Shown in pieces: positions 10,782 through 35,907 of a stretch of 35,907 nucleotides of DNA; position 1 is the stretch's first letter, and each line of letters begins with the position of its first letter. The DNA comes from Candidatus Rokuibacteriota bacterium (lineage in GTDB: Bacteria > Methylomirabilota > Methylomirabilia > Rokubacteriales > CSP1-6). The position numbers and the translations under genes are program-made. The notes under the pieces were generated by a model. The model saw nothing but the letters and a program-made list of their open reading frames with translations, ran no database searches and had not been told where the DNA came from. The stretch covers positions 1 to 35,907 of the forward strand of contig QHSQ01000009.1 in NCBI GenBank assembly GCA_003221615.1, read 5' to 3'.

Positions 10782-10787
10782 CGCGCG

Positions 10788-13877: not shown

Positions 13878-13907
13878 TTGACGACGGCCGCCCCATGGTG
13901 GTACGTG
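13878..13907 (+). promoter_or_regulatory. Candidate promoter of the regulator and catabolic operon
   Basis: TTGACG at 13878-13883 is a good -35 match. The -10 is weak (TACGTG at 13902-13907, 18-base spacing) and overlaps the palindrome that starts at 13906. A repressor bound there would block RNA polymerase. The -10 assignment is the weak part. Confidence 0.35.
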
Positions 13908-13915
13908 TCTAGACA
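13906..13915. promoter_or_regulatory. Palindromic operator of GntR/HutC type
   Basis: TGTCTAGACA is a perfect ten-base palindrome containing GT-C-TA-G-AC, the GT-N-TA-N-AC pattern known for HutC-subfamily GntR operators. It sits 26 bases before the start codon of just such a regulator and ahead of its Shine-Dalgarno site, so autoregulation, and control of the genes behind it, is the natural reading. Confidence 0.65.
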
Positions 13916-13925
13916 TCTTGACAGC

Positions 13926-13932
13926 AGGAGGT
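13926..13932 (+). promoter_or_regulatory. Shine-Dalgarno sequence setting the TTG start of the regulator
   Basis: AGGAGGT, a near-perfect match to the anti-Shine-Dalgarno, lies eight bases before TTG at 13941. It outweighs in-frame upstream codons, which would extend the protein back into the DinB gene. Confidence 0.8.
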
Positions 13933-13940
13933 CGCCCCCT

Positions 13941-14666
13941 TTGAATTACCGCCCCGGCATTCCTCGCTATCTGCAGATCGCCGACACCATCCGCGGAGAG
14001 CTCCGCGACGAGGGGGAGCGGATCGCCTCCGAGCACGCGCTCTGCGCCCGCTTCAAGGTGAGCCGCCCCACCATCCGCCAGGCGCTCGACGTCCTGGTCC
14101 AGGAGGGACGACTCTATCGCCATGCCGGCCGCGGGACATTCGCGACCCCCGCCGCGGGCGGTGACCGGAAGCTCCGGGTGATCGGCTCGGTCGGCGACAT
14201 GATGGCGCTGGGCGACGAGACCTGGTTCAAGTTCGTGTCGCGCGAGGTCGTGCTCCTGCCGGCGAACATCGCTCAGGCGCTCCGCCTGCCGCCCCGCTCG
14301 TCGGCGTATTGCATCGTCGGGGTCCGGCACTCCGAAGCCGGGCCCTTCCAGCACGTGACGGCCTACATGCCGCTGACGATCGGTACCGCGCTCTCCGAAG
14401 AAGACCTCTCGAAGACCTCGATGATCGGCGCGATCGAACGGCTGCTCGGTATCCCGATCAAGCTGATGGAGCAGGTCGTGGACGCCGCGCTCGCGCCGCG
14501 GCAGGTGGCCGAGCAGCTGCAGATCCGCGCTCGATCGCCGCTGCTCTTCTTCGAGCGCACCTATTTCGCGCTGAGCGGCGAGCCCGTCGAGCACACGATC
14601 TCGTGGCAGACCGGGCGCCGTTATCCGTACCGCATCGTGCTCTCGCGCGCGGAGCGCCGGAACTGA
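13941..14666 (+). CDS. GntR family transcriptional regulator (HutC subfamily, UTRA domain)
   Basis: This 241-residue regulator starts at TTG: the preceding AGGAGGT and the palindrome at 13906 both lie between the DinB stop and this codon. The winged helix-turn-helix covers about residues 8-72, with IPRYLQIADTIRGEL, SEHALCARFKVSRPTIRQAL and the wing GRGTFA. Residues about 90-236 form a UTRA effector-binding domain (VTAYMPL, LLFFERTYF, VEHTISW). HutC-type proteins usually repress their operon until a pathway metabolite binds. The next gene follows after two bases, so it heads, and likely controls, the catabolic operon downstream. The effector is unknown; a substrate or CoA-free intermediate of that pathway is the obvious guess. 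Confidence 0.9.
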   Translation: MNYRPGIPRYLQIADTIRGELRDEGERIASEHALCARFKVSRPTIRQALDVLVQEGRLYRHAGRGTFATPAAGGDRKLRVIGSVGDMMALGDETWFKFVSREVVLLPANIAQALRLPPRSSAYCIVGVRHSEAGPFQHVTAYMPLTIGTALSEEDLSKTSMIGAIERLLGIPIKLMEQVVDAALAPRQVAEQLQIRARSPLLFFERTYFALSGEPVEHTISWQTGRRYPYRIVLSRAERRN

Positions 14667-14668
14667 CA

Positions 14669-16738
14669 GTGCCCTATCGCGTCGGGTTCGATGTCGGCGG
14701 AACCTTCACCGACTTCGTCCTCCAGTCGCCCTCCGGCGAGCTCTCCACCGGCAAGCGGCTCACGACGTATCCCGACCCGTCGGAGGCCTGCCTGGCCGGC
14801 CTCGATGCGCTCCTGGCGCAGGCCGGCGTGCCGTGGAGCGACGTGGCGCAGGCGGTTCACGGCACCACGCTCGGCTCCAACGTCGTCATCGAGCGCAAGG
14901 CGCGCGGCGTCGGGCTCCTGACGACCCGCGGCTTTCGCGACGTGCTCATCATCGGACGTGAGAAGCGCTATCAGGTCTACGATCTCCAGATCGAGAAGCC
15001 GGCGTCGCTGATTCCGCGCCGGCTGATCGGCGAGGTCACCGAGCGCGTCCTGGCCGACGGCACGGTGCGAACGCCGCTCGAGGAGGCCGACGCGCGGCGG
15101 GCGATCCGCGAGCTGGTCGCTCGCGGCGTGACCACGCTCGCGGTGTGCCTGCTCCACGCGTACCTGAATCCCGTGCACGAGCGGCGCATCGCGGCCCTCG
15201 TCGCCGAGGAAGCGCCCCACGTCACGGTCACGCTCTCTCACGAGGTGTCGCCCACCTTCCGGGAATACGAGCGGACGTCGACGACCGTCGTGAACGCCTA
15301 CGTGATGTCGATCGTCCGCGAGTATCTCCGCGGTCTCGCGACCGCCATGGGCCGGCGCGGATACCGCGGCCGGCTGTTCGTGATGCAGTCCTCCGGTGGT
15401 ATCGCGACGGCCGAGGCGATGCAGCGCTACCCGGTTAGGATGATCGAGTCCGGTCCCGCCGCCGGCGCCTTGATGGCGGCCGCGTACGGCGAGCTCACCG
15501 GCCACCGCGAGCTGATCGCTTTCGATATGGGCGGCACGACCGCCAAGCTCGCGCTCATCGAGAACGGGCGACCGGCGACGACGACGGCCTTCGAGCTTCA
15601 TCGCGTGAACAATGCGCCCGGCAGCGGGCTGCCCATGAACATCCAGGCGATCGACCTGGTCGAGATCGGCGCGGGGGGCGGCTCGATCGCGCAGGCCCGG
15701 CTCGGGGTCATCGCCGTCGGGCCCGAGAGCGCCTCGTCGACGCCGGGGCCCGTCTGCTACGGGCGCGGCGGCGTGGACCCTACCGTCACCGACGCCGACG
15801 TCGTGCTCGGCTACATCAATCCCGACTACTTCGCCGGCGGCTCGATCAAGCTTCAGGCGGGCGCCGCGGCGCGTGCGATCGAGGAACGGGTCGCGCGGCC
15901 GCTGGGGCTGTCGCTCGAGGACGCGGCGTGGGGCATCCATGCGATCGTCAACACCAACATGGAGCTGGCGACGCGCGTGGTGTCGATCGAGCGCGGGCGC
16001 GACCCGCGCGATCTCACGCTCGTCGCGTTCGGCGGCTCGGGGCCCGTCCACGGCTGCCGGCTCGCTCAGGCGCTCGGGATTCCGCGCATCGTGCTGCCGG
16101 CGTCGGCCGGGGTGACGGCGGCGATCGGCTTGCTCGCCGCCGAGGTGAGGTTCGACGTCGCGCGCACGTACGTGCGCCGCCTCGATGCGGTCGACGGCGC
16201 CGCGCTCGACGCGATGTACGCCGAGATGAGCGCCCAGGCGATCGCGGTCGTGCAGGAATCCGCGGTCGCGGGCGACGCGATGGTCGCGCGCTCGGCCGAC
16301 GCCCGATACGTCGGCCAGGGCTACGAGGTCACCGTGCCGATTCCCCGGGGCCGGCTCGACGGCGCCGCGCTCGCCCGCGTGCAGGCGAGCTTCCACGAGG
16401 TCTACGCCGCCCGCTACGGCTACGCGAACCCGGCGGAGCCGGTCGAGGTGGTCACGTGGAAGCTCTCGGCCGTCGGCGGCTCGCCGCGCATCGCGCTCGC
16501 CAAGGCGGGCGCGAGGGCGGCGGACCTGCGGCGCAAGGCGACGCGTCGCGCGTATTTCCCCGAGGCTCGCGGCTACACCGACACGCCGGTGTATGACCGC
16601 TACGAGCTCGCCGCGGGCACGTCACTCACCGGCCCGGCGATCGTCGAGGAGCGCGAGTCGACGACGGTCCTGCCCCCTCGTGTGACGGCGACGGTCGACG
16701 AGTACGCGAACCTGATCGCGGAGACGCGTCCGGCATGA
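14669..16738 (+). CDS. hyuA: Hydantoinase/oxoprolinase subunit A
   Basis: This 689-residue protein is the ATP-binding subunit of the hydantoinase A/5-oxoprolinase/acetone carboxylase beta family. The actin-like nucleotide-binding motifs are visible: FDVGGTFTDF near residues 7-16, GTTLGSNVVIERKARG, and FDMGGTTAKLALI in the middle. Such subunits phosphorylate an amide, lactam or ketone carbonyl so that subunit B can hydrolyse or carboxylate it. The GTG at 14669 is chosen because it follows the regulator stop by two bases and directly precedes the conserved strand. It overlaps hyuB by four bases. Members of this family open oxindole-type lactams in anaerobic indoleacetate breakdown, which the rest of the operon suggests here. 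Hydantoin or oxoproline are the alternatives. Confidence 0.93.
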   Translation: MPYRVGFDVGGTFTDFVLQSPSGELSTGKRLTTYPDPSEACLAGLDALLAQAGVPWSDVAQAVHGTTLGSNVVIERKARGVGLLTTRGFRDVLIIGREKRYQVYDLQIEKPASLIPRRLIGEVTERVLADGTVRTPLEEADARRAIRELVARGVTTLAVCLLHAYLNPVHERRIAALVAEEAPHVTVTLSHEVSPTFREYERTSTTVVNAYVMSIVREYLRGLATAMGRRGYRGRLFVMQSSGGIATAEAMQRYPVRMIESGPAAGALMAAAYGELTGHRELIAFDMGGTTAKLALIENGRPATTTAFELHRVNNAPGSGLPMNIQAIDLVEIGAGGGSIAQARLGVIAVGPESASSTPGPVCYGRGGVDPTVTDADVVLGYINPDYFAGGSIKLQAGAAARAIEERVARPLGLSLEDAAWGIHAIVNTNMELATRVVSIERGRDPRDLTLVAFGGSGPVHGCRLAQALGIPRIVLPASAGVTAAIGLLAAEVRFDVARTYVRRLDAVDGAALDAMYAEMSAQAIAVVQESAVAGDAMVARSADARYVGQGYEVTVPIPRGRLDGAALARVQASFHEVYAARYGYANPAEPVEVVTWKLSAVGGSPRIALAKAGARAADLRRKATRRAYFPEARGYTDTPVYDRYELAAGTSLTGPAIVEERESTTVLPPRVTATVDEYANLIAETRPA

Positions 16739-18474
16739 GCCCCGTCGATCCGATCACGCTCGGCGTCATCTGGGGCGCTCTGCAGTCGATCGCGGTCGAG
16801 ATCGGGACGACCGTGCACCGGACCGCCTACTCGGAGCAGGCGCGCGAGGGCCAGGATTTCTCGGTCGCGGTCTTCGATCCGCGCGGGCGCATGGTGGCGC
16901 AGGGCCCGTACTCGCCCGGGCACATGGGCGCGATGTCGTTCGCGGTGCGAAACGCGCTCGCGGCTCACGCGGTCGAGACCTTGAAACCCGGCGACGCCAT
17001 CCTCTTGAACGATCCGCTCCTCGGCTCCGGTCATCTGCCCGACTTCTTCATCACGCAGCCCGCGTTCCACGATGGTGCGCTGGTGGGCTTCGCCGTCAAC
17101 ATCCTGCACCACACCGACGTCGGCGGTCAGCGGCCGGGCAGCCAGGGCGTCGAAGGGATCTTCGACTACTTCCAGGAAGGGCTGCGCATCCCGCCGACGA
17201 AGGTCTGGAAGGAATACCAGGAGCAGGAGGGCATCGTCGGGATCATCGCGGCGAACACGCGCACGCCCGACAAGGTGCTCGGCGACCTGCGCGCCCAGCG
17301 GAGCGCCCTGCGGGTGGGCGAGCTCCGGCTGCAAGAACTGGCGGCGCGCTACGGTCGCGAGACGCTGCTGGCCGGTATGGACGAGATCATCACGCGTACC
17401 GAGGCGAGCATGCGCGCCGCCATCGAGAAGATCCCGAACGGCGTCTACCGCTTCGAGGACTTCATGGACGATTGCGGCCCCGGCACGGAGCCGCTGCGCG
17501 TGGCCGTCACGGTGACCGTAGCCGGCGACTCGATGGTCATCGACTACGCGGGCTCGAGCCGAGAGACCGCGTCGGGCATGAACTCCTACATCAACTACAC
17601 GCGCTCGTATTCCTACGCCGCGGTGAAGTGCCTCACCGACCCGCTCGGTCCCATGAACGAGGGCGCGCTGCGCCCGATCACCGTCGAGGCGCCCGAGGGC
17701 TCGTTCCTCAACCCGCGACCGCCCGCGGGCGGCGGGCCCCGCGCGATCATCTGCTATCGCACGTTCGAGTCGGTGCTGGGCGCGCTCGCACCGGCCCTGC
17801 CGGATCGGGTCGCGGCGGCCGCCTCGCACATGGCCAACCCGACCTTCGGCGGCTGGGACCGCGCGCGGAAGCGCCGCTTCGTCGCCTACGAGCTGGTGCT
17901 CTCCGGGACCGGCGCGCGCGCCACCAGGGACGGCTGCGAGGTGATGGTGTGGGTGTTCAATGTCGCCAACATTCCGGTCGAGGCGCAGGAAGCCAACCAG
18001 CCGATCGTCGTCGAGCGCTTCGAGCTGATCGGCGATTCCGCCGGCGCCGGGAAATTCCGAGGCGGCTGCGGCGTCCGCCGCGACCTGCGTCTGCTCGGCG
18101 ACGAGGGCAAGCTGACGAATCTCTCCGATCGGCAGAAGTTCGCGCCGTATGGTCTGTGCGGCGGCCGGCCCGGAGCGCTCGGCCGCACCGTCCTCAACCC
18201 CGGAGGGGGCGGAGAGGTCGTCCACGGTAAGGAGTCGCGCGAGTTCGCCTACGGCGACGTCGTGTCGTTCCAGCTGTCGGGCGCCGGCGGCTATGGTGAT
18301 CCGCTCGAGCGCGACCCCGGGCGCGTCCTCGAGGACGTCCTCGACGACTACGTGTCGATCGAAGCGGCACGCCGCGAGTACGGCGTGGTGATCACGGGAA
18401 CCGGCGCCGCGCTGTCGGTCGACGCGGACGCGACGCGGCGGCTTCGCGACGAGATGGGGACGGCGCGGTCATGA
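16735..18474 (+). CDS. hyuB: Hydantoinase/oxoprolinase subunit B
   Basis: This 579-residue protein is the hydantoinase B/oxoprolinase partner of HyuA. Family features are TVHRTAYSEQAREGQDFSVA near the N-terminus, LNDPLLGSGHLPDFF, and HHTDVGG with His125, His126 and Asp128, the likely metal site. GKFRGGCGVRRDLRLL and SGAGGYGDPLERDP mark the C-terminus. With HyuA it should form an ATP-dependent amidohydrolase; no gamma-type subunit of acetone carboxylase is nearby, which favours hydrolysis over carboxylation. ATGA overlaps couple it to hyuA before it and to a dehydrogenase after it. Confidence 0.93.
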   Translation: MSPVDPITLGVIWGALQSIAVEIGTTVHRTAYSEQAREGQDFSVAVFDPRGRMVAQGPYSPGHMGAMSFAVRNALAAHAVETLKPGDAILLNDPLLGSGHLPDFFITQPAFHDGALVGFAVNILHHTDVGGQRPGSQGVEGIFDYFQEGLRIPPTKVWKEYQEQEGIVGIIAANTRTPDKVLGDLRAQRSALRVGELRLQELAARYGRETLLAGMDEIITRTEASMRAAIEKIPNGVYRFEDFMDDCGPGTEPLRVAVTVTVAGDSMVIDYAGSSRETASGMNSYINYTRSYSYAAVKCLTDPLGPMNEGALRPITVEAPEGSFLNPRPPAGGGPRAIICYRTFESVLGALAPALPDRVAAAASHMANPTFGGWDRARKRRFVAYELVLSGTGARATRDGCEVMVWVFNVANIPVEAQEANQPIVVERFELIGDSAGAGKFRGGCGVRRDLRLLGDEGKLTNLSDRQKFAPYGLCGGRPGALGRTVLNPGGGGEVVHGKESREFAYGDVVSFQLSGAGGYGDPLERDPGRVLEDVLDDYVSIEAARREYGVVITGTGAALSVDADATRRLRDEMGTARS

Positions 18475-19631
18475 TCCAGTTCACCGCCGAGCAGGAAGAG
18501 TTCCGCAAGGCCGTCGCGCGGTTCGTCGACGCCGAGGTGGTCCCGGCGGCGGAGACGCTCGACGAGCGCGCCGAGTTCCCGACCAAGCTCTTCAAGCGCA
18601 TCGGCGAGCTCGGCTATCTCGGCCTTCGCTACCCGGAGAAGTACGGCGGCGCCGACGCCGACATGGTGACGTATTGCCTCTTCGCCGAGGAGCTGGCGCG
18701 GGGCTCGCTGTCGGTGGCCGCGGCGGCGGCGATGCAATCGCTGATGGGGACCTACTTCGTTCATAAATACGGCTCCGAAACGCTGCGCCAGCGCTACCTG
18801 GTGCCGGCCCTCCGCGGCGATCTGATCGCGACGTTCGCGCTGACCGAGCCGAACGCCGGCTCGGACGTCGCGAACATCACCACGCGGGCCCGGCGGCGCG
18901 GCGATCGCTACGTGCTGCGCGGCACGAAAACGTGGGTGACGAGCGCGCCGGTCGCCGATCTCCTGACGGTCGCGGCCAAGACGTCGGACGAGCGCGGCCT
19001 GCAGAGCATCGCGCTCTTCTTGCTGGACCGCGCGACGATGCGCGGGATCACCCTCGGCAAGTCGATCGAGAAGATGTCCGTGCGCGCCTCGGTGACCGGC
19101 GAGATCCTGCTCGAGGACGTCGAGGTTCCGGCCGAGCACCTGCTCGGCGGCGAGACGGGCGGGGTCGAAAAGATCGGGGGCATTCTCTCCGAGATCCGTG
19201 TCATGACCGCCGCGATCTCGGTGGGGCTGGCCCGCGCCGCGTACCAGGCGGCGCTGGGCTACGCGCGCGAGCGGCAAGCGTTCGGCAAGCCGATCGCGGA
19301 GCACCAGGCGATCGGCTTCAAGCTCGCCGACATGCTGACCTCGCTCCACGCGGCGATCCTCGTGACCTACCAGGCGGCGGCGCAGCTCGACCTCGGGCGG
19401 GTCATCACGCGGGAGGCGGCGATGGCGAAGCTCTTCGCCTCGGAGACCGCGGTCAGGATCACCGACGAGGCGGCCCGGATCTTCGCCTCGTATGGGCTCG
19501 CCACGGAGTACCCGGTCCAGCGCTACTTCCGGGACGCGCGCTTCCTCCTGCCCGGGGGCGGCACCTCCGAGATCCTGCGTGTGATCATCGGGCGCGATCT
19601 CGACTGGGACCGGGGCCCGGCATTCGCCTGA
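18471..19631 (+). CDS. Acyl-CoA dehydrogenase family protein lacking the usual catalytic Glu
   Basis: This 386-residue protein has the complete acyl-CoA dehydrogenase fold: LTEPNAGSDVAN and WVTSAP for FAD and substrate, RQAFGKPIA, and a C-terminal helical domain. At the position of the catalytic base (Glu in IYEGTNQIQ of the 12170 gene) it has Gly363 (LPGGGTSEI). Long-chain and isovaleryl-type enzymes also have Gly or Ala here and use a Glu just before an Arg on helix G; this protein has Glu241 there, but one residue off (SEIR). Its place between hyuB and beta-oxidation genes would suit a benzylmalonyl-CoA-type oxidative decarboxylase, where CO2 loss could replace proton abstraction. That role is inference. 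Confidence 0.88.
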   Translation: MIQFTAEQEEFRKAVARFVDAEVVPAAETLDERAEFPTKLFKRIGELGYLGLRYPEKYGGADADMVTYCLFAEELARGSLSVAAAAAMQSLMGTYFVHKYGSETLRQRYLVPALRGDLIATFALTEPNAGSDVANITTRARRRGDRYVLRGTKTWVTSAPVADLLTVAAKTSDERGLQSIALFLLDRATMRGITLGKSIEKMSVRASVTGEILLEDVEVPAEHLLGGETGGVEKIGGILSEIRVMTAAISVGLARAAYQAALGYARERQAFGKPIAEHQAIGFKLADMLTSLHAAILVTYQAAAQLDLGRVITREAAMAKLFASETAVRITDEAARIFASYGLATEYPVQRYFRDARFLLPGGGTSEILRVIIGRDLDWDRGPAFA

Positions 19632-19656
19632 CGCGAGTCGATCCACTGGAGGGACG

Positions 19657-20109
19657 ATGCAATCACGCGGACGCTTTTTCGAGGATTTCAAGGTGGGTGA
19701 GGTGCTCGTGACGGGACGCCGGACGGTGGAGGGCGGGGACGTCTCGCGCTTCGCCGGCCTCACCGGCGACTTCAACCCGCTCCACACCGACGAGGTGTTC
19801 GCGAAGCAGACGCCGTTCGGGGCCCGCGTGGCCCACGGTATCCTGACGCTCGCGGTGTCCAACGGTCAGCAGAACCTCTCGGGCTGGTTCGAGGGGACGG
19901 CGCTGGCGCTCCTCGGACTCGACCGGCTCCGCTTCACGCTACCGGTGAAGTTCGGCGACACGATCCACACCGAGATGACCGTGAAGCAGGCGCGCGAGTC
20001 GTCCAAGACCGACCGCGGTGTCGTCACCTTCGACGTGGTCGTGAAGAACCAGCGGGACGAGGTGGTCTGCACCTACGAGGAGCACGTCCTCATGCGGAGG
20101 CGGTCGTGA
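19657..20109 (+). CDS. MaoC family (R)-specific enoyl-CoA hydratase
   Basis: This 150-residue hotdog-fold protein hydrates enoyl-CoA. The hydratase 2 signature is clear: Asp38 and His43 in TGDFNPLHTD, then FGARVAHGILTLAV. Proteins of this type usually give (R)-3-hydroxyacyl-CoA. That would not match a classical (S)-specific dehydrogenase, so stereochemistry with the dehydrogenase at 21272 is open. GGAGGG lies three bases before the ATG, and the gene overlaps the following thiolase by four bases (GTGA). The 25-base gap before it is one of the longest within the operon. Confidence 0.92.
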   Translation: MQSRGRFFEDFKVGEVLVTGRRTVEGGDVSRFAGLTGDFNPLHTDEVFAKQTPFGARVAHGILTLAVSNGQQNLSGWFEGTALALLGLDRLRFTLPVKFGDTIHTEMTVKQARESSKTDRGVVTFDVVVKNQRDEVVCTYEEHVLMRRRS

Positions 20110-21275
20110 GGAAGGTCGCACTGGTCGGGGCGGGTGTGTCGAAGTTCGGCGTGCGGAAGGCGAGCTATCGGGACCTGATCTGGGAAGCCGGGAAGGCCTG
20201 CTTCGACTCGGTGCCGGCGGTGAGGCCGAAGGACGTCGAAGGCCTCGTGGTGGGCTCGGTGATGCCGGAGCGGACCGCGTTCCAGTCCCACATCTCGTCG
20301 ATGGCCGCCGAGGCGCTCGGGATCAGGCCGACCGCCTTGAGCGCGCGCACGGAGCACATGTGCGCCTCGGGCACGGTCGGCATCCGCTATGCGTACGCCT
20401 TCATCGCCGCGGGGCTGGCCGACCTCGTCATGGTGCTCGGCGTCGAGAAGCTCAACCAGCCGAGCAGTGACGAAGCGATCCTCAACATGGGGACCGGCGT
20501 CGATCGCGAGTGGGAGGCCTCGTTCGGGCTCACGGCCCCGCCCTGCTTCGCGCTGGCCGCGCAGCGTCACATCGCGGAGTACGGGACCACCGAGGAGCAG
20601 CTGGCGATGGTCGGCGTGAAGAATCACACGCACGCCTCGAAGAACCCCAACGCGCACTTCCAGCGCGGCGCGACGCTCGAGCAGGTGCTCGGCTCCCGGA
20701 TGATCTCGTCGCCGCTCCGGCTCTTCATGTGCTCGCCGATCACCGACGGGGCCGCGGCGGTGATGATCGCGTCGGAAGACCGCGCGCGAGCCCTCACCGA
20801 CAAGCCGGTCTGGATTCGCGGCACCGGCCAGGCGCTCGACGGCTTCCAGCTGACGTCGCTCCACGAGGACTACGCACACTGGCCCGCCCTCGGGCGCGCC
20901 GCCCAGTCGGCGTACACGATGGCCGGTGTCCGCGCGCAAGACATCGACGTCGCCGAGGTCCACGACTGTTTCGCGATCGCCGAGCTGATCGCGTACGAGG
21001 AGCTGGGCTTCTGCCGCAAGGGCGAGTCCGGCGCCTTCGTCGCGGCGGGCCGGAGCGATTACGGGGGCGATGTCGTGGTGAACCCGCGGGGCGGGCTGAT
21101 GGGTTGCGGCCATCCGCTGGGCGCGACCGGCGTGGCCCAGGCAGCCGAGGTGTTCTCTCAGCTCCGGGACGAGGCAGGCGCCCGTCAGGTGCCGGAGCCG
21201 TCCGTCGGGCTCACCCACAACAACAGCGGGATGGGTGAACACGTCGTCATGATCTACGGCCGCGAGAGTCGATGA
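20106..21275 (+). CDS. Thiolase family protein (SCP2-thiolase type)
   Basis: This 389-residue protein is of the lipid-transfer/SCP2-thiolase branch. The acyl-accepting Cys86 is in HMCASGT. AEVHDCFAIAE and NPRGGLMGCGHPLGATG supply the catalytic His residues and second Cys region. These thiolases normally work with a small DUF35 OB-fold protein, and one is encoded two genes downstream. It would cleave a 3-ketoacyl-CoA with CoA, releasing acetyl-CoA and a shortened, possibly aromatic, acyl-CoA. The GTG start overlaps the MaoC stop, and its own stop overlaps the next dehydrogenase. Confidence 0.92.
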   Translation: MRKVALVGAGVSKFGVRKASYRDLIWEAGKACFDSVPAVRPKDVEGLVVGSVMPERTAFQSHISSMAAEALGIRPTALSARTEHMCASGTVGIRYAYAFIAAGLADLVMVLGVEKLNQPSSDEAILNMGTGVDREWEASFGLTAPPCFALAAQRHIAEYGTTEEQLAMVGVKNHTHASKNPNAHFQRGATLEQVLGSRMISSPLRLFMCSPITDGAAAVMIASEDRARALTDKPVWIRGTGQALDGFQLTSLHEDYAHWPALGRAAQSAYTMAGVRAQDIDVAEVHDCFAIAELIAYEELGFCRKGESGAFVAAGRSDYGGDVVVNPRGGLMGCGHPLGATGVAQAAEVFSQLRDEAGARQVPEPSVGLTHNNSGMGEHVVMIYGRESR

Positions 21276-23042: not shown

Positions 23043-23128
23043 TTCCTGCGTGGGTCGACCGCCGGGAGTACCCGTTCGAGCCGCGAGGCCTCGACGTGCC
23101 GTTCCTCACACGCTTTCTCGAGCGGTAG
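23039..23128 (+). CDS. 29-residue micro-ORF between the mutase subunit genes
   Basis: TTG at 23039 overlaps the mutase small-subunit stop (TTGA), the same coupling used throughout this operon. AAGGAG at 23025-23030 lies eight bases before it, and nearly all its codons end in G or C. It encodes 29 residues starting [19 protein letters not shown]. This start resembles the N-terminus of alpha/beta hydrolases of the haloalkane-dehalogenase type, where WxDRxxYPF precedes the first strand, but the rest of a hydrolase is absent. So it is either a translated remnant or a true small protein tied to the mutase. The sequence features support translation; function is unknown. Confidence 0.55.
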
Positions 23129-23132
23129 GCCC

Positions 23133-23141: not shown

Positions 23142-23144
23142 ACG

Positions 23145-24740: not shown

Positions 24741-24742
24741 CG

Positions 24743-29327: not shown

Positions 29328-30202
29328 GCCCGACAGCGCTCGTCCACGTCGTCGTCAGCGGCCTCGCCACCGGCTCGATCTACGCGCTGATGGCGATCAG
29401 CCTCGTGATCATCTACAACGCCACCCGCACGCTCAACTTCGCGCAGGGCGAGATGCTGATGGTCTCGACGTTCATCGGCTGGACCGCGCTGCAGGTGCTG
29501 GACGCGCCGCTGGTGGTCGCGCTGCTGGTCGCGGTCGTCGCGGCGGCGCTGCTCGGCTTCATCCTCGAGCGTGTCGTCATCCGTCACGCGATCTCGGCCA
29601 CGCACTTCGACGTGCTGATCATCACGCTCGGGCTCTCGCTGATGCTGCGCTCGGCCGCCGGCGTCATCTGGACCCACGACGAGTTTCCGTTCCCCTCGTT
29701 CTTCTCCAACCGGCCGCTGGTCGTGGGGCCGATTCGCGTGGCGCCGGTCTCGCTCGGGATCATCGGCGCCTCGCTGGCGCTCATGCTGGCGCTCGCTGCG
29801 CTGTTCCGCTGGACGCGCCTGGGCCGGGCGATGCGCGCGGTCGCGCAGAACCAGCGGGCGGCGCGGCTCATGGGCATCAGCGTCGAGCGCGTCTACTCTT
29901 CGTCCTGGGTCATCGCCTCGGTCGTGGGCGCGGTGGCCGGGGTGCTGATCGCGCCCGTCATCTTCCTCTCCTCGAAGATGGGTCTGGTGGCGATCAACGG
30001 GTTCACCGCCGCGGTCCTCGGCGGCTTCGGCTCGATGCCGGGCGCGGTCGTGGGCGGCATGCTGCTGGGCGTGCTCGAGAACCTCGCGCCCCTGTATCTG
30101 CCGGCGTCGATCAAGCACTCGGTGCCGTTCCTGGTCATGATCTCGATCCTGATCGTGCGTCCCGGCGGCGTGCTCGGACGCGTCGCGCGGCGAAAGGTCT
30201 GA
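29324..30202 (+). CDS. livH: Branched-chain amino acid-type ABC transporter permease LivH
   Basis: This 292-residue inner-membrane permease has about eight helices and the N-terminal LATGSIYALMAISLVIIYNATRTLNFAQGE typical of LivH. The EAA-like loop is the RWTRLGRAMRAVAQN stretch, followed by GAVAGVL. With LivM it forms the translocation pore. The ATG at 29324, overlapping the previous stop (ATGA), is chosen over a GTG six codons upstream because overlap-coupling is the rule here. Such transporters frequently import aromatic acids as well as amino acids, which fits the neighbours. Confidence 0.93.
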   Translation: MSPTALVHVVVSGLATGSIYALMAISLVIIYNATRTLNFAQGEMLMVSTFIGWTALQVLDAPLVVALLVAVVAAALLGFILERVVIRHAISATHFDVLIITLGLSLMLRSAAGVIWTHDEFPFPSFFSNRPLVVGPIRVAPVSLGIIGASLALMLALAALFRWTRLGRAMRAVAQNQRAARLMGISVERVYSSSWVIASVVGAVAGVLIAPVIFLSSKMGLVAINGFTAAVLGGFGSMPGAVVGGMLLGVLENLAPLYLPASIKHSVPFLVMISILIVRPGGVLGRVARRKV

Positions 30203-31131
30203 TGCGACACGCCGCGCTCGCGACCGGCGCCGCGGTGGTGGTGGGCTGGCCCTGGGCGGCGCCGCCCTACTTCGTCTTCCTGGCGAGCCTCATCGCCATC
30301 AATGCGATCGTGGCGATTGGGCTCAATCTCCTCTCGGGCTACACCAACCAGCTCTCGTTCGGGCACGCCGGCTTCCTGGCGATCGGCGCATATGCGGCGG
30401 CGATCCTCACGATCCGCGCGCCGGCGCTGCCGGTCCCCGCGAGTCTCCTGCTGGCCGGTCTCGCCACCGCCGCGGTGGGTTTGGCCCTGGGCGTGCCGTG
30501 CCTGCGCCTCGAGGGCCTCTACCTGGCGATGGCGACGCTCGCGTTCGGCTTCGTGGTCGTCGAGGCGATCCTGAACCTCGAGTGGCTCACGCGCGGCAAC
30601 GACGGCCTCCACGTGCCCGCCGCGCGCCTCGGTCCCTGGGCCTTCGCGACTGACACCGCCCGGTACTATCTGGTCGTCGCGGTCGCCGCGCTCCTGATCG
30701 TGGCCGCCGTCAACATCAGCCGGACGCGGACGGGGCGCGCGCTCCTGGCCGTCCGCGAGAGCGAGATCGCGGCGCAGGCCAGCGGCGTCAACCTGGCCGC
30801 GTACAGAACGCTCGCGTTCGTCGTCTCGGCGTTCTACACCGGCGTGGCCGGCGGCCTCTTCGCGCTCGTGGTGGGATTCCTGTCGCCCGATTCCTTCGAC
30901 GTGTTCCTCTCGGTCGATTTCGTGGCGATGATCATCGTCGGCGGCCTCGGGTCGATCCTCGGCTCGGTGGTCGGCGCCGCCGTCATCACCGCCCTCAACG
31001 ACTCGCTCGCGGGCTTTCAGAATTACCGGCCGCTCATTTTCGGCGCCATTCTGGTGACCTCCATGCTGTTCATGCCGGGCGGGATCGCGAGCGCGCTCCG
31101 CAAAATTCCCTCGATAAGGAGACTTCGATGA
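30202..31131 (+). CDS. livM: Branched-chain amino acid-type ABC transporter permease LivM
   Basis: This 309-residue permease is the LivM partner of LivH. Characteristic stretches are IGLNLLSGYTNQLSFGHAGFLAIGAYAAAIL near the N-terminus, the cytoplasmic coupling loop TRTGRALLAVRESEIAAQASGVN, and VDFVAMIIVGGLGSILGSVVGA. About eight to nine membrane helices are predicted by eye. Its ATG shares one base with the LivH stop (TGATG), and its own stop overlaps the binding-protein gene by four bases. Confidence 0.93.
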   Translation: MRHAALATGAAVVVGWPWAAPPYFVFLASLIAINAIVAIGLNLLSGYTNQLSFGHAGFLAIGAYAAAILTIRAPALPVPASLLLAGLATAAVGLALGVPCLRLEGLYLAMATLAFGFVVVEAILNLEWLTRGNDGLHVPAARLGPWAFATDTARYYLVVAVAALLIVAAVNISRTRTGRALLAVRESEIAAQASGVNLAAYRTLAFVVSAFYTGVAGGLFALVVGFLSPDSFDVFLSVDFVAMIIVGGLGSILGSVVGAAVITALNDSLAGFQNYRPLIFGAILVTSMLFMPGGIASALRKIPSIRRLR

Positions 31132-32288
31132 TCAGCCGTGCAAGCCTTCTGCTGCTCCTGGCCGTCACGCTGAGCGCGCTGCCCGCCGCCGCCCAGCCGG
31201 GCGTCAGCGACACCGAGATCGTGATCGGCAGCTCGAACTCGTTCTCCGGCCCGCTGGCCTTCACGGGAGAGCAGATCACGAAGTTCGGCGTCGACCTCTA
31301 CTTCCGTGTGGTCAACGACGCCGGCGGCATCCACGGCCGCAAGGTCCGGACCGTCTACTACGACGACGGCTACCGGCCGCAGGACGCGGTCGCCAACACC
31401 AAGAAGCTCGTCGAGCAGGACAAGGTGTTCGCGATCATCATCCCGCAGGGCTCACCGCCGGTCGTCGCGACGCTCGAGTACCTCGAGGAGAACAAAGTGC
31501 CGCTGCTGTTTCCGTATCAGAGCTCTCCGGTGACGCGGGGGAAGCGCTACGTGCTGCAGGGGATGACCCTGAGCGACCGGTCGTCCAAGATGATGATCGA
31601 CTACCTGGCCGGGCAGCGGAAGCTCAAGAAGTTCGCCGCGCTCTACCAGGACGACGAGTACGGCAAGTCGTTCCTCACCGCCTTCGAGAAGGATCTGGCG
31701 CGGTTCGGCCTCAAGCTGGTCGCCGCCGAGTCGGTCAAGCGCGGTGTCACCGACGTGAGCGCTCAGGTCGCGAAGCTCCAGGCCGCCAAGCCGGAGGTGA
31801 CGTTTCTGGTGCTGGTGCCGGGTCCGGGCGCACAAGCGCTGAAGGAGCGCCAGAAGATCGGCTGGACGGACACGCTCATGGTCTCGACGGGACCGCTGAC
31901 CGACGAGCGCTACCTGTCGCTCGCGGCCGAAGCGGCCGAGGGTGTCGAAGGGCTGTCGCTCTGGCCCGATCCGCTGACCTCCGATCTGCCGGGTGTCAAG
32001 CTCTACCGGGAGCACATGCAGCGCTATTTCCCGAAGAACGAGCCGAATCGGTACTCGATCGCCGGCTACTTCGCGGGGATGCTCTTCGCGGAGGGCGCCA
32101 AGCGCGCCGGGCGCAACCTGACGCGCGAGTCGTTGATCGCGTCGCTCGAGTCCGTCAAGGGATTCGAGAGCGGTATCTTGCCGCCGATCACGATCGGGCC
32201 GGACCACGAGACCCAGAAGCAGGGGTTCTGGGTGCGCGTCGAGAAGGGACGCTTCAAGCAGCTGACGGACTGGCTCAAGTCCGAGTAG
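31128..32288 (+). CDS. ABC transporter substrate-binding protein (LivK-like)
   Basis: This 386-residue periplasmic binding protein of the type I Leu/Ile/Val family has a Sec signal peptide (hydrophobic core at about 6-20, cleavage near PAAAQ). The mature start GVSDTEIVIGSSNSFSGPLA, GGIHGRKVRTVYYDDGY and YQDDEYGKSFLTAFEKDL are typical. Binding proteins encoded inside aromatic-catabolism operons of this type usually bind aromatic or dicarboxylic acids; the ligand cannot be read from sequence. It is the only exported component of this operon and likely captures the pathway's starting compound. Confidence 0.92.
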   Translation: MISRASLLLLLAVTLSALPAAAQPGVSDTEIVIGSSNSFSGPLAFTGEQITKFGVDLYFRVVNDAGGIHGRKVRTVYYDDGYRPQDAVANTKKLVEQDKVFAIIIPQGSPPVVATLEYLEENKVPLLFPYQSSPVTRGKRYVLQGMTLSDRSSKMMIDYLAGQRKLKKFAALYQDDEYGKSFLTAFEKDLARFGLKLVAAESVKRGVTDVSAQVAKLQAAKPEVTFLVLVPGPGAQALKERQKIGWTDTLMVSTGPLTDERYLSLAAEAAEGVEGLSLWPDPLTSDLPGVKLYREHMQRYFPKNEPNRYSIAGYFAGMLFAEGAKRAGRNLTRESLIASLESVKGFESGILPPITIGPDHETQKQGFWVRVEKGRFKQLTDWLKSE

Positions 32289-32292
32289 GGCG

Positions 32293-33057
32293 GTGCTCCG
32301 CGTCGAAGATCTCTCGATCAGCTTCGGCGGCCTCGCCGCCCTGAGCGAGCTCGGCTTCGAGGTCCGCGATCGAGAGATCTTCGCGCTGATCGGCCCCAAC
32401 GGCGCCGGCAAGTCGACCGTCTTCAACCTGATCACCGGGCTCTACCGTCCGCGGGCGGGCCGGGTCACGCTCGACGGTGAAGACTTGCTCGCGCTGGCGC
32501 CGCACGAGGTCGCCCGGCGCGGTGTCGCCCGTACGTTCCAGAACACCGAGGTGTTCCGTCAGCTGACCGCCCTGGACAACGTCCTCATCGGTCGCCACGC
32601 TCACCTGCGCGCGGGTGTGATTCGCGGGGCCCTCGGGCTGCCCGCGGTGCGCCGCGAGGAAGCGCGGGCGCGCGAATCCGCCCGCGCGCTGCTGGCGCGG
32701 TTCGGGCTCGACGGCGTCGCCGCGACCGAGGCGGGCAGCCTCCCGCTCGGCGCCCAGAAGCGGCTCGAGATCGCCCGGGCGCTCGCCTCCGAGCCGCGGC
32801 TCTTGCTGCTCGACGAGCCGGCCGGCGGGCTCAATCCGACGGAGACCCAGACGTTGATGGCCGTGATCCGACGGCTGCGGGACGAGAGTGGCCTGACGAT
32901 CGTCGTGGTCGAGCACGACATGGAGCTCGTCATGGGCATCTCGGACCGGGTGGCCGTCCTCGATCACGGCCGCAAGATCGCGGAGGGTAAGCCCCGCGAG
33001 ATCGTCGCCGATGCGGCGGTCGTCGAGGCCTATCTGGGGAGCGAGGAAGACGCGTGA
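32293..33057 (+). CDS. livG: ABC transporter ATPase LivG
   Basis: This 254-residue ATPase of the Liv importer has the Walker A motif GPNGAGKST, the Q-loop region RTFQNTEVF, the LivG-style signature LPLGAQKRLEIARAL in place of LSGGQ, Walker B LLLLDEPAGGLNP and the switch His in VVEHDM. The GTG start lies four bases after the binding-protein stop. It overlaps livF by four bases (GTGA). It pairs with LivF at the membrane to power uptake. Confidence 0.95.
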   Translation: MLRVEDLSISFGGLAALSELGFEVRDREIFALIGPNGAGKSTVFNLITGLYRPRAGRVTLDGEDLLALAPHEVARRGVARTFQNTEVFRQLTALDNVLIGRHAHLRAGVIRGALGLPAVRREEARARESARALLARFGLDGVAATEAGSLPLGAQKRLEIARALASEPRLLLLDEPAGGLNPTETQTLMAVIRRLRDESGLTIVVVEHDMELVMGISDRVAVLDHGRKIAEGKPREIVADAAVVEAYLGSEEDA

Positions 33058-33791
33058 CACCGGTGCTCGAGCTCGACGACGTCGCCGTCGCCTACGGCAA
33101 GCGTCGCGCGCTCGACGGCGTGAGCCTGAGTGTCGCGCCCGGCGAGATCGTCACCTTGCTCGGGGCCAACGGCGCCGGGAAGTCGACGACGCTCCGCGCG
33201 GTGTCCGGCCTCGTCCGGCCGACGCGGGGACATATTCTCTACGAGGGCCGCGACATCACGCACGTCCCGGCCGACGCCACCGTCGCCGCCGGTGTCAGCC
33301 ACGTTCCGGAAGGGCGCGAGATCTTCCCGGAGTTCACGGTCCGCGAGAATCTGCTCGTCGGCGGCCATACCGTGGAGCGGTCCCGGATCGACGAGCGCCT
33401 CGAGTCGGTCTTCGGGCTGTTTCCGGTGCTCCGGGATCGCCAGGCGCAAACGGCCGGAACGCTCTCGGGCGGCGAACAGCAGATGCTCGCCATCGGCCGG
33501 GCGCTGATGACCCGGCCGCGGCTGCTCTTGCTCGACGAGCCGTCGCTCGGCCTGGCGCCGATGCTCGCGCGCGAGATCTTCCGCGTGATCCGGCGGATCA
33601 ACGAGGACGGCGTCGCGGTCCTGCTGGTCGAGCAGAACGCGCGCCGCGCGCTGGCCCTCGCCTCGCGCGGCTACGTGCTCGAGACCGGGCGCCTGGTCAC
33701 GTCGGGCACGAGCGCGGAGCTCTCGGCGGACCCGCGCGTGCGCACCGCCTACCTCGGGCTCGACCGAGCCCGCAGCGACGTCGCGGGCTGA
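33054..33791 (+). CDS. livF: ABC transporter ATPase LivF
   Basis: This 245-residue second ATPase of the importer has Walker A GANGAGKSTT, the signature LSGGEQQMLAIGRAL, Walker B LLLLDEPSLGLAP and the typical switch region LLVEQNARRAL (Gln in place of His is usual for LivF). The GTG start overlaps the livG stop. After its stop there are 15 bases before the PaaK-like gene, where a weak internal promoter may lie. Confidence 0.95.
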   Translation: MTPVLELDDVAVAYGKRRALDGVSLSVAPGEIVTLLGANGAGKSTTLRAVSGLVRPTRGHILYEGRDITHVPADATVAAGVSHVPEGREIFPEFTVRENLLVGGHTVERSRIDERLESVFGLFPVLRDRQAQTAGTLSGGEQQMLAIGRALMTRPRLLLLDEPSLGLAPMLAREIFRVIRRINEDGVAVLLVEQNARRALALASRGYVLETGRLVTSGTSAELSADPRVRTAYLGLDRARSDVAG

Positions 33792-33798
33792 CGCGCGC

Positions 33799-33804
33799 TA
33801 GACT
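33799..33804 (+). promoter_or_regulatory. Weak candidate -10 box before the PaaK-like gene
   Basis: TAGACT is a fair -10 match only two bases before the ATG at 33807. If used, transcription would start near 33811, and the GTG at 33813 would be a leaderless start. No -35 box is evident, and read-through from livF is equally possible. Confidence 0.2.
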
Positions 33805-33806
33805 CG

Positions 33807-35093
33807 ATGGCCGTGAGCGCCATGTGGCAGCCCGAGCTCGAATCCCTCGACCGCGCGCCGCTCGAGCGTCTGGTCGTCGAGCGGATGCGCGCGACGCTCG
33901 CGCGCGTGCTGGCCGAGCCCGCGTGGGCGCGCCGCCTGCCCGGCGTCCGGCCGGAGGACATCGCGTGGGTTGAAGACTGGCGGACGCTGCCCTTCCTCAC
34001 GAAGGAGGAGCTGCGCGACGCGTATCCGTACGGGCTCGCGTGCGCGCGCCCGGCGGGCTACCGGCGGATTCAGATGTCGAGCGGGACGACCGGCAACCCC
34101 ATTCTGAATCCCTACACCGCCTCCGACGTCGCGCAGTGGGCCGAGGTCATGGCGCGATGCTACGTCACCGCCGGGGTCGGCCCGACCGACGTCATCCAGA
34201 TCACGCCCTCGTTCGGGCTCTTCACCGGCGGGTTCGGCTTCCACTACGGCGCCGAGCGGCTCGGCGCGATGGTGATCCCGATGGGCGCCGGCCGCACCGG
34301 CCTGCAGCTCCGGCTCATGCGCGATCTGAAGGCGACCGTCGTCACCGCAATCGCGACCTACCCCTTGCGCTTGATCGAGGCGGCGCGTGAGGAACGTTTC
34401 GACCTCGGCTCGCTCTCGCTCCGCGTGGGCATCCTCGGCTCCGAGATGTGGTCGGACGAGCTGCGGGCGCGCATCGAGCGCGAGCTCGACATCCGCACCT
34501 TCGACATCATCGGCATGACCGAGAGCGGCGGTCCCGGGCTCGGCATCGACTGCGCCGCCCGCGCCGGCGTTCACGTCTGGGAGGACCACTATTACCCCGA
34601 GATCGTCGACCCGGCGACCGGCGCGGTCGTGCCCGACGGCACCGAGGGGGAGCTCGTGATCTCGACCTTGACCCGCGAGGGCCTGCCGCTGATCCGCTAT
34701 CGCACGCACGACCTCACGCGCGTGGTGTCGCGCGGTCGCTGCGACTGCGGGCGCACCTCGCTCAGGCTCGACCGCCTCCGCGGACGAGTCGACGACATGG
34801 TCATCTACAAGGGGATCAACTTTTATCCGCGCCAGATCGAGACGACCCTGCTGCGACACGCCGGCGTGAGCCACGAGTACCAGGTGGTGATCGACACGGA
34901 TGGGGGCGGCGAGCGGATGACGATCCACGTCGAGACCGATCCGGGATGCGATCCGGCGGTCGGGGCGCGCATCCGGCGCGAGCTTCACGACGCGCTCGCG
35001 CTGAGTCCGGAGGTGCGTCTCTGCGCCCACGGCGCGATCGAGCGGGCGCAGGGCAAGGCGGTGCGCGTCGTCGATCGCCGGCCGCGCCAGTGA
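33807..35093 (+). CDS. Phenylacetate-CoA ligase family protein (PaaK-like)
   Basis: This 428-residue AMP-forming ligase joins an aryl acid to CoA. The P-loop is MSSGTTGNP (from residue 90), IIGMTESGGPG is the A5-like motif, the CDCGRTSLRL segment is typical of PaaK, and the catalytic Lys is in RAQGKAVRV near the C-terminus. The length matches the PaaK family (about 430-440). It may activate phenylacetate, indoleacetate (as IaaB does) or a related acid. ATG at 33807 is used; GTG 33813 and ATG 33822 are alternatives. It overlaps the next CoA-transferase by four bases. Confidence 0.92.
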   Translation: MAVSAMWQPELESLDRAPLERLVVERMRATLARVLAEPAWARRLPGVRPEDIAWVEDWRTLPFLTKEELRDAYPYGLACARPAGYRRIQMSSGTTGNPILNPYTASDVAQWAEVMARCYVTAGVGPTDVIQITPSFGLFTGGFGFHYGAERLGAMVIPMGAGRTGLQLRLMRDLKATVVTAIATYPLRLIEAAREERFDLGSLSLRVGILGSEMWSDELRARIERELDIRTFDIIGMTESGGPGLGIDCAARAGVHVWEDHYYPEIVDPATGAVVPDGTEGELVISTLTREGLPLIRYRTHDLTRVVSRGRCDCGRTSLRLDRLRGRVDDMVIYKGINFYPRQIETTLLRHAGVSHEYQVVIDTDGGGERMTIHVETDPGCDPAVGARIRRELHDALALSPEVRLCAHGAIERAQGKAVRVVDRRPRQ

Positions 35094-35907
35094 CGCTCCT
35101 GGCCGGCGTGACCGTGCTCAGTCTCGAGCAGGCCACGACCCTGCCGTTCCTGACCTACCGGCTTGCCTGCGACGGCGCCCGCGTCATCCGGATCGAGAAC
35201 GCCGAGCGGCCCGATCCCAACCGGTTCGTCGGCAAGGACGTCCTCGCCGAGCCCGCGATGCGGAGCTACTTCCTCTCGAACAACTGCGGCAAGGAGGCCA
35301 TCACGTTGAACCTCGGCCACCCCGAGGGCCAGGCGCTCTTGCGCGAGCTGATCGTGAAGCTCCGCGTCGACGTGTTCGCCTGCAACCAGCGACCGCGGAG
35401 CTACGCGCGTCTCGGGATCGAGCCGCCGGCGCTCTGCGCCGTGAAGCCCGACCTCATCTGGCTCGGGATCACCGGCTTCGGCCCCGAGCACGACGAGGCG
35501 GCGTACGATCCGGTGCTCCAGGCGCGCAGCGGGTTCATGGAGCTGACCGGCGAGGCGAACGGCTCACCGCTGGTCTTCGGCCTGCCGATGGTCGATCTCG
35601 GCGCCGCCGAGCACGGCTACAGCGAGGTGATGAAGGCGCTCTACCATCGCGCCACGACCGGCGAAGGCTCACGCATCGACGTGTCGATGCTGAGAAGCGC
35701 GGTGTCGTGGATGGTCGCGCCCGTCGTGCTCTCGAGCCTCGGCGAGCGCGTGACCCGCAAGGGCAACCGGCATCAGTTCTTCGCCCCGGTGGCCGTGCAC
35801 CGCACGCGCGACGGCCACGTGTACCTGGCGATCGGCAACGATCAGCAGTGGGCGGCGCTCACGGCCTTGCCCCGCTTCGGCGCGCTCGCCCGGCCCGAGT
35901 ACGCCGC
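35090..35907 (+). CDS. Second class III CoA-transferase (3' partial)
   Basis: The frame begins with GTG at 35090, overlapping the ligase stop, and stays open to the window end (272 full codons); the C-terminal third is missing. It is a CaiB/BaiF protein: LAGVTVLSLEQATTLPFLTYRLACDGA at the start and the catalytic Asp169 in GLPMVDLG, the same position as in the first CoA-transferase at 27028. It is clearly divergent from that one, for example CNQRPRSYARLGIE in place of WENFRPGIMERMGL, so the two likely use different acceptors. It shows that the operon continues past the window. Confidence 0.9.
   Translation, partial: MTLLAGVTVLSLEQATTLPFLTYRLACDGARVIRIENAERPDPNRFVGKDVLAEPAMRSYFLSNNCGKEAITLNLGHPEGQALLRELIVKLRVDVFACNQRPRSYARLGIEPPALCAVKPDLIWLGITGFGPEHDEAAYDPVLQARSGFMELTGEANGSPLVFGLPMVDLGAAEHGYSEVMKALYHRATTGEGSRIDVSMLRSAVSWMVAPVVLSSLGERVTRKGNRHQFFAPVAVHRTRDGHVYLAIGNDQQWAALTALPRFGALARPEYA

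Follow-up and report, generated by a model that had tools for sequence, protein, structure and literature searches.

The stretch of DNA considered here, hereafter the window, comprises 35,907 nucleotides and is the entire contig C38 of its genome. Its right-hand part holds a single co-directional run of 20 genes, from gntR (TTG start at 13941) to the contig end at 35907, and this run is probably a GntR-controlled catabolic operon that follows an iaa-type route, with indole-3-acetate as its most likely substrate. Three iaa-type features are present, namely an acyl-coenzyme A (CoA) dehydrogenase of the IaaF clade with a GGG motif, a two-subunit mutase of the IaaGH clade, and an IaaL-type CoA-transferase. 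Three others that were looked for, a three-subunit molybdenum (Mo) hydroxylase, a lactamase of the IaaCE clade and an IaaB-type ligase, were not found in the window, and the run is therefore an iaa-like variant that works like the iaa operon, not an iaa operon proper, with a pathway that is incomplete in the window. The first-pass annotation had called the run complete in every step, which goes too far: the Mo subunit stands alone, the IaaL counterpart is cut at the window end, and HyuA and HyuB are only 36% and 30% identical to IaaC and IaaE. Its outline of one coupled run of about 20 genes is borne out, with 4-bp overlaps at 12 of the 19 gene junctions, and its gene identities hold under Pfam/NCBIfam-type scans, which covered 19 of the 20 genes; the gene at 35090 was identified by BLAST and tree.

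The host organism appears to be a Rokubacterium (Methylomirabilota, Rokubacteriales), a placement that supports the earlier remark on an unexpected lineage. Rokubacteria are common in soil, and the host is probably an uncultured soil organism. The window has a G+C content of 69.6%, and the source genome amounts to 7.24 Mb in 596 contigs (completeness 96.5, contamination 8.6), so genes on other contigs are possibly foreign. According to the accessible text of PMC8360864, iaa-type degradation occurs in denitrifiers and is predicted in sulfate reducers and a few archaea, with a predicted iaa operon in Ferroglobus placidus. Among the matches listed in the open-licence literature, no description of an iaa-like operon in Rokubacteria was found.

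Core enzymes shared with the iaa operon

The reference operon was found through the iaaF primer printed in PMC8360864, which in a named-genome scan matched 10 stretches, with Aromatoleum buckelii among them and A. aromaticum not. The A. buckelii operon encodes a thiolase, an AMP-ligase, HyuA, HyuB, IaaF, two mutase subunits, the flavin adenine dinucleotide (FAD), [2Fe-2S] and Mo subunits of a hydroxylase, IaaL and a binding protein; the letters I, J and K for the three hydroxylase genes are our own assignment from gene order. Identity to this operon is higher for the dehydrogenase, both mutase subunits, the Mo subunit and the CoA-transferase at 35090, and lower for HyuA, HyuB, the CoA-transferase at 27028 and the binding protein (Table 1).

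In a tree of 39 mutases (of 59 collected, those omitted being mostly near-copies and one distant copy at 34%), 15 iaa-like and nine Rokubacterial rows are split by a 100/100 branch from 15 other mutases, a reference set with no characterised propionate mutase by name. Within the 24-row side, the Rokubacterial mutases are sister to the iaa-like rows and not nested within them. Branching with true methylmalonyl-CoA mutases had been named beforehand as a finding that would count against the iaa reading; the window mutase instead lies 100/100 apart from the 15 others. It carries 19 of the 32 residues that mark the iaa-like enzymes when 15 of these are compared with the 15 others, and 7 of the 24 that mark the others, and it keeps a Tyr/Arg pair that we take to be typical of dicarboxylic acyl-CoA mutases. 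The large subunit is assigned to IaaH by tree, and the small subunit to IaaG by identity only. Three mutases at 52-54% identity, found in G047, G049 and G051 from different families within the class, were rejected as iaa-like candidates, as they lie across the 100/100 branch; the dehydrogenases beside them are 41-47% identical to that of the window.

The acyl-CoA dehydrogenase contains the motif FLLPGGGTSE. In the accessible text of PMC8360864, GGG in place of YEG is tied to the decarboxylating IaaF, and GGG is found in IaaF and in all 20 Rokubacterial copies (that of the window and 19 others). In a search of the whole A. buckelii genome, the window protein matches iaaF at 355 bits, whereas none of its 13 other matches exceeds 269 bits. 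It has 15 of the 19 marker residues that separate 16 iaa-like from 13 other dehydrogenases, a count that left out seven GGG/AGG rows without a mutase small subunit in a short stretch. A 43-row tree places all 30 GGG-group rows (29 GGG and one AGG) on one 100/99 branch; here the Rokubacterial dehydrogenases are sister to that of G495 (100/99), while the tree does not resolve how, inside this clade, they connect to the Aromatoleum row. A profile of the enzyme (expectation value limit 1e-112, up to four candidates scored per genome) matched 98 of 395 genomes in the phylum of locus L032, many of which need not be iaa, and 5 of 392 in an archaeal phylum. Among 40 loci inspected, which were the best-scoring ones plus four others, 35 had GGG, one AGG and four neither. 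At L121, L128-L130, L132 and L135, a GGG-type dehydrogenase was seen beside an IaaL-like transferase, and the short stretch read there showed no small subunit of a mutase.

The run contains two class III CoA-transferases, and a 31-row tree puts that at 35090 in the IaaL half and that at 27028 in the other, with 100/100 support. The CoA-transferase step had earlier been assigned to 27028, but at 50% identity to IaaL against 29%, and in a separate clade, the gene at 35090 is the IaaL counterpart. Transferases of this type have a full length of 391 aa in G005, G003 and G032, and comparison with G005 indicates that the truncated gene resumes at an end of contig C596 of the host genome (G000:C596). 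Relatives of the 27028 type (55-61%) stand beside the mutase in two archaeal iaa-like clusters and in that of G495 (L147, L148 and L152), so the 27028 transferase would belong to a subset of such pathways.

Proposed route, weak points and rival readings

From these genes we infer a route in which the Liv importer would take up an aromatic N-heterocyclic acetic acid (indole-3-acetate being the most likely), from which the PaaK-type ligase would form the CoA ester. The Mo hydroxylase would oxidise position C2 to give the lactam (2-oxo) form, HyuAB would open the lactam in an ATP-dependent step to yield an aryl-succinyl-CoA, and the IaaL-type transferase would shift CoA to the other carboxyl group. 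The B12 mutase would then produce an aryl-methyl-malonyl-CoA, which the GGG dehydrogenase would oxidise and decarboxylate to an aryl-acrylyl-CoA, and MaoC, 3-hydroxyacyl-CoA dehydrogenase (HBD) and the two-subunit thiolase would release aryl-CoA and acetyl-CoA. If the substrate is indoleacetate, this aryl-CoA would be 2-aminobenzoyl-CoA, and an enzyme resembling 2-aminobenzoyl-CoA monooxygenase elsewhere in the genome could continue from there. On orthology and motifs, the chemistry from aryl-succinyl-CoA to aryl-acrylyl-CoA is well supported; the preceding ligase, hydroxylation and lactam-opening steps are plausible but have two weaknesses. As far as sequence can tell, indoleacetate is the likeliest single candidate for the substrate.

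A number of observations weigh against this reading, several of which concern the hydroxylase. The first-pass annotation had placed a Mo-hydroxylase at 24743, and its Mo subunit stands (47% identity), while the FAD and iron-sulfur (FeS) subunits have no match in the window. In favour of the iaa reading, a 21-row Mo tree, in which several rows are partial, groups the window with Aromatoleum, G250, G549, G705 and G746 at 94/95, just under the threshold for a starred branch. The FAD and [2Fe-2S] subunits adjoin the Mo subunit in Aromatoleum. They are unmatched in 23 of 24 related regions as fetched, and G037, from a sister family, is the sole region where both genes adjoin the Mo gene; their presence there speaks for the iaa reading. 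Elsewhere in the host genome there are 18 Fe-S domain matches, none of them a clear orphan partner for the window subunit; 16 have their own Mo-subunit-like match in a short stretch, the exceptions being L098 and L102. Five archaeal regions, some of them short, gave no Mo-subunit match as fetched. Elsewhere in the pathway, PaaK stands in place of IaaB and a different thiolase in place of IaaA, and of the 24 related regions, as fetched, only 9 showed maoC and only 16 hbd. GGG dehydrogenases also occur without an adjacent mutase small subunit in loci of the phylum of L032, so that GGG alone does not mean indoleacetate.

Further points arise downstream of the pathway. A search for 2-aminobenzoyl-CoA genes elsewhere in the genome, proposed by the first-pass annotation, returned a monooxygenase-like gene and no degradation-type neighbourhood around it. 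The gene, on contig C120, encodes a 751-aa protein that scores 1184.8 bits on NF006101 (cut-off 1078), a match that favours the route, beside 1178.1 bits for the G005 protein and 1397.7 for that of Aromatoleum, and its domain order is presumably that of 2-aminobenzoyl-CoA monooxygenase/reductase. NF006101 is named salicylyl-CoA 5-hydroxylase, which leaves the substrate of the C120 enzyme open, and its neighbours, which match models for glutamate dehydrogenase and sugar-acid dehydratases below their cut-offs, did not look like a degradation cluster. The role of 2-aminobenzoyl-CoA monooxygenase/reductase is given in the accessible text of PMC4539516.

The lactamase is the remaining difficulty. 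Its earlier assignment to a hydantoinase-type family was right, but its identification with the iaa proteins fails at 36% and 30% identity, as the window HyuA lies outside the IaaC clade; HyuB was compared by identity only. The HyuA tree has 34 rows (32 of 62 collected plus two solved enzymes), with some forks open and long branches flagged. The six iaaC-type rows fall into a clade of their own (100/99), to which the second HyuA of G021 and G025 is sister (99/96). The window HyuA and its kin join plasmid copies from Caballeronia and Natrinema (89/65 and 99/96), archaeal HyuA and that of G495 form another clade, and three rows from the phylum of L032 form a third. A 100/99 branch separates 15 non-iaaC cluster rows, ungrouped paralogues among them, from the six iaaC rows. 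Judged by this tree, iaa-like clusters have more than one kind of lactamase, and that of the window is not IaaC. Grouping with characterised 5-oxoprolinases or hydantoinases had also been named as a sign against the iaa reading, and here the outcome is ambiguous, since HyuA groups neither with the IaaC clade nor firmly with the two solved enzymes. Predicted 2-oxoindoleacetyl-CoA lactamases form a defined cluster in the accessible text of PMC5214803. IaaE-type HyuB was found in 11 of 57 family genomes and in none of nine from the host genus, host included (limit 1e-150), and an IaaC-type HyuA lies inside the fetched cluster region of G016, G021, G025 and G031. A second HyuAB pair, of the IaaCE type and 49-58% identical to Aromatoleum IaaC/IaaE, was observed within the cluster region itself in three related genera (L080, 385-4130; L076, 16426-20000; L083, 1-3196). 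The presence of both types side by side in some relatives is the strongest point against a simple swap, and the window HyuAB may accordingly do another job.

It is possible, though a good deal less likely than indoleacetate, that the same chemistry acts on another N-heterocyclic or lactam-forming acid, for instance an indoleacetate with substituents, or an acid of the hydantoin or pyrrole type. A module of hydantoinase, opine dehydrogenase and CoA-transferase would then have been added to an iaa core, and HyuAB, the second CoA-transferase and the octopine-dehydrogenase-like enzyme would reflect that substrate. The position of HyuA and the two pair types found together in some relatives point this way, as do the 27028-type transferase, present in 22 of the 24 related regions, the octopine-dehydrogenase-like gene, present in 19 of them, and a Natrinema plasmid where close HyuAB relatives accompany octopine-dehydrogenase- and HBD-like genes with no match to the mutase, the GGG-type dehydrogenase or the Mo subunit in 31.7 kb. 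However, four proteins of the window (Mo subunit, mutase, dehydrogenase and IaaL-type transferase) fall with the iaa proteins, and several kinds of HyuA occur among iaa-like clusters, archaeal ones included, so the type of HyuAB need not track the substrate. Were another acid the substrate, two different lactams would be opened in those relatives that have both HyuAB types, and the trait would be widespread in the Rokubacterial family and characteristic of it.

Plasmid relatives of these genes were seen in other settings as well. The best listed identities were 44.5% for the dehydrogenase, 48.3% for the mutase and 50.3% for HyuB, among the best 30 of 1863, 30 of 427 and 20 of 925 records, respectively. 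A Halostagnicola plasmid with adjacent dehydrogenase and mutase was rejected, as no HyuAB or Mo gene is annotated there, and so were two further, unannotated records with HyuAB and no iaa core in the stretch read. The HyuAB neighbours on the Caballeronia plasmid resemble sugar-acid enzymes. Octopine-dehydrogenase-like relatives adjoin a window-type HBD in five of six annotated plasmid regions opened among 121 matching records, and in Natrinema such a relative lies near an HBD. On an Acinetobacter plasmid (L247, 6988-17264), the pair adjoins MarR, an amidase, a dehydrogenase, a dioxygenase pair and catechol genes, a locus that we read as suggestive of the iac type, and in Paracoccus (L241, 163-11102) it adjoins a dioxygenase cluster that may be iad-like. 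A general association of the pair with auxin loci was rejected, as only one of the five regions with the pair lies at an iac-like locus.

Alternatively, the run could serve an aryl- or alkyl-succinate route, with HyuAB, the Mo enzyme and the importer kept in one transcription unit for separate purposes. The GGG dehydrogenases without an adjacent mutase small subunit would fit this, as would the Liv genes, which were not seen in the cluster in the fetched regions of many relatives (livH in 9 of 24), but it is unlikely given the overlapping genes of the window, a core set common to many genera with some rearrangement, and the recurrence of Mo enzyme, HyuAB, mutase, GGG dehydrogenase and IaaL-type transferase together in G250, G549, G705 and G746. 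A plain propionate or branched-chain pathway that uses a standard methylmalonyl-CoA mutase, the label that Pfam and NCBIfam give the subunits, is most improbable in view of the 100/100 separation, of the glycine loop that replaces the H..QT active-site loop of other mutases in the iaa-like enzymes and the window, and of other mutases in the host genome, two of which fall among the 15 across that branch.

Regulator, gene order and flanking genes

Ahead of gntR, the sequence reads TTGACG, a 17-nt spacer and GTACGT, followed by the palindrome TGTCTAGACA, AGGAGG (13926-13931) and the TTG start. TTGACG is conserved in a six-genome upstream alignment; a generic promoter scan returned no site. TGTCTAGACA is the sole site in the window at one mismatch or fewer, and at least one site also arose in 22 of 100 shuffles. 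It is present in 14 of 16 genomes searched (15 family genomes including the host, plus Aromatoleum), being absent from G021 and Aromatoleum, and in 14 of the 15 family genomes a copy immediately precedes the gntR orthologue (13 by alignment, G001 by coordinates). Four genomes (G000, G001, G011 and G032) have one additional copy, of which three were read and had no gntR nearby; that of the host lies near position 610 of L239 (G000:C166). A reversed control pattern also gave 0-2 sites per genome, so the number of sites is uninformative and the fixed position at gntR carries the weight. The palindrome resembles what we take to be DasR-type operators. It is a candidate operator at which GntR would act, overlapping the promoter.

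From gntR, the order is hyuA, hyuB, acyl-CoA dehydrogenase, maoC, thiolase, hbd, OB-fold partner, small and large mutase subunits and Mo subunit, and then CoA-transferase, octopine-dehydrogenase-like gene, five Liv genes, PaaK-type ligase and the second CoA-transferase, which ends at 35907. A dehydrogenase and a small gene upstream (12170-13854) precede the palindrome and were left outside the putative operon. Leftward genes at 7459-10820 look by eye like metal-type ATP-binding cassette (ABC) uptake (membrane and binding protein) and are unrelated to the operon. A second cluster was observed downstream (G000:C596, 36094-37800, L027; G005:C42, 76173-77879; G003:C55, 38794-40467), contiguous with the operon in G005 and G003 and reached across a contig break in the host genome. 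It holds another mutase, an electron transfer flavoprotein pair, a second GntR, acyl-CoA dehydrogenases, an aminotransferase and another Liv importer; its mutase has Phe/Gln at the Tyr/Arg positions, presumably isobutyryl-type residues.

Table 1. Features of the run, with the evidence for each; identities are to proteins of Aromatoleum buckelii
Feature	Position	Strand	Evidence
Candidate promoter	13878..13906	+	TTGACG (13878-13883), 17-nt spacer, GTACGT (13901-13906); read from sequence
Perfect palindrome TGTCTAGACA, putative GntR operator	13906..13915	.	Sequence and conserved position
GntR/UTRA (HutC-type) regulator	13941..14666	+	PF00392 and PF07702; TTG start, AGGAGG; start region conserved
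HyuA, ATP-dependent hydantoinase/lactamase large subunit	14669..16738	+	PF05378, PF01968, PF19278; 36% to IaaC; tree
HyuB, hydantoinase/lactamase small subunit	16735..18474	+	PF02538; 30% to IaaE
IaaF-like decarboxylating acyl-CoA dehydrogenase	18471..19631	+	49% to IaaF; GGG at residues 362-364; tree
MaoC-type enoyl-CoA hydratase	19657..20109	+	PF01575
SCP2-type thiolase	20106..21275	+	BbsB-like, below model's cut-off
3-Hydroxyacyl-CoA dehydrogenase	21272..22237	+	PRK08269-like, below cut-off
Zn-ribbon/OB-fold thiolase partner	22234..22662	+	PF01796, PF12172; BbsA-like, below cut-off
B12-binding small mutase subunit (IaaG-like)	22659..23042	+	49% to small subunit; PF02310
Large subunit of acyl-CoA mutase (IaaH-like)	23145..24740	+	53% to IaaH; tree 100/100; residue test
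Mo subunit, xanthine-oxidase-family hydroxylase (IaaK-like)	24743..27031	+	47% to Mo subunit; tree
Class III CoA-transferase, second type (not IaaL)	27028..28221	+	29% to IaaL; separate clade 100/100
Octopine/opine-dehydrogenase-like NAD(P) oxidoreductase	28218..29327	+	PF02317; nearest solved structure 1bg6
Liv-type ABC importer, five genes	29324..33791	+	Family scans
livH	29324-30202	+	Liv importer
livM	30202-31131	+	Liv importer
Liv binding protein	31128-32288	+	Liv importer; 24% to binding protein
livG	32293-33057	+	Liv importer
livF	33054-33791	+	Liv importer
PaaK-type aryl-acetate CoA ligase	33807..35093	+	TIGR02155 390.9 bits, below cut-off; nearest solved structures PaaK
IaaL-like class III CoA-transferase, cut by contig end	35090..35907	+	50% to IaaL; clade

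Distribution and likeness to known systems

A mutase match of at least 74% identity was found in 27 of 34 other family genomes, in two of three from other families of the order and in none of 21 other class members (limit 1e-100, some matches being cut by contig ends). An IaaF query found 2 of 398 genomes in the phylum of Aromatoleum, the query genome included (limit 1e-92), a count that differs in query and limit and is not like for like. The 24 related regions contain the large mutase subunit (24), the small subunit, 27028-type transferase and OB partner (22 each), thiolase and Mo subunit (21 each), dehydrogenase (19), hyuB (17), hyuA (15) and livH of the window type (9); many regions stop at contig or fetch limits, so that not every absence is a true loss. 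Gene order is largely conserved from gntR through the octopine-dehydrogenase-like gene, and the Liv set was not seen in many relatives. In G016, G024, G036 and G037, the CoA-transferase comes directly after the mutase, and the Mo gene is next or was not seen. Since the key gene occurs in most of the close relatives that were searched, auxin or a chemically related compound may be a food source for these bacteria, and if indoleacetate is the substrate they would be an overlooked auxin sink in soil. The palindrome at gntR offers an easy in vitro handle on the inducer, and the HyuAB difference makes the relation of lactamase type to substrate testable.

Comparable clusters were sought in 20 regions fetched around dehydrogenase-type genes. 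PaaK-like matches occur in seven of these, and a strong IaaB match (55%) only in G250. The iaa-like clusters of archaea and of the phylum of L032 overlap the window in gene content, several with a PaaK-type ligase, and the regions of G705 and G746 combine CoA-transferase, GGG enzyme, mutase pair, HyuAB and PaaK-type ligase with the FAD, FeS and Mo genes. The cluster of G878 resembles the window in its closely spaced genes for HBD, SCP2-type thiolase, OB partner, HyuAB, GGG dehydrogenase and the mutase subunits; genes of the PaaK and IaaL types lie some 10 kb upstream. It differs in sequence (32-56% identity) and in a HyuA of a separate clade, and its Mo subunit is unmatched in the stretches read.

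The iac and iad auxin loci of Pseudomonas and Variovorax, types described in the accessible text of PMC9613470, have the proposed substrate in common with the window but use different chemistry, with a ring-hydroxylating dioxygenase and MarR. No domains of such a dioxygenase pair or of MarR were found in the 19 of 20 genes scanned, and the twentieth is a CoA-transferase by tree.

The closest known system is the Aromatoleum iaa operon (iaaABCDEFGHIJKLMPQR), which shares with the window the GGG acyl-CoA dehydrogenase, the mutase pair, the Mo subunit, the IaaL-type CoA-transferase, an ATP-dependent hydantoinase-family pair and, at 24% only, an extracytoplasmic binding protein. The window differs in a lactamase from another HyuA clade, in PaaK where Aromatoleum has IaaB, and in the lack of FAD and FeS subunits. 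Its MaoC, HBD and two-subunit thiolase stand against IaaA and a fused dehydrogenase-hydratase, and its UTRA-type GntR with a conserved palindrome against an FCD-type GntR and a TetR. Beyond the Aromatoleum set, the window adds a full Liv importer, a second CoA-transferase and an octopine-dehydrogenase-like enzyme.

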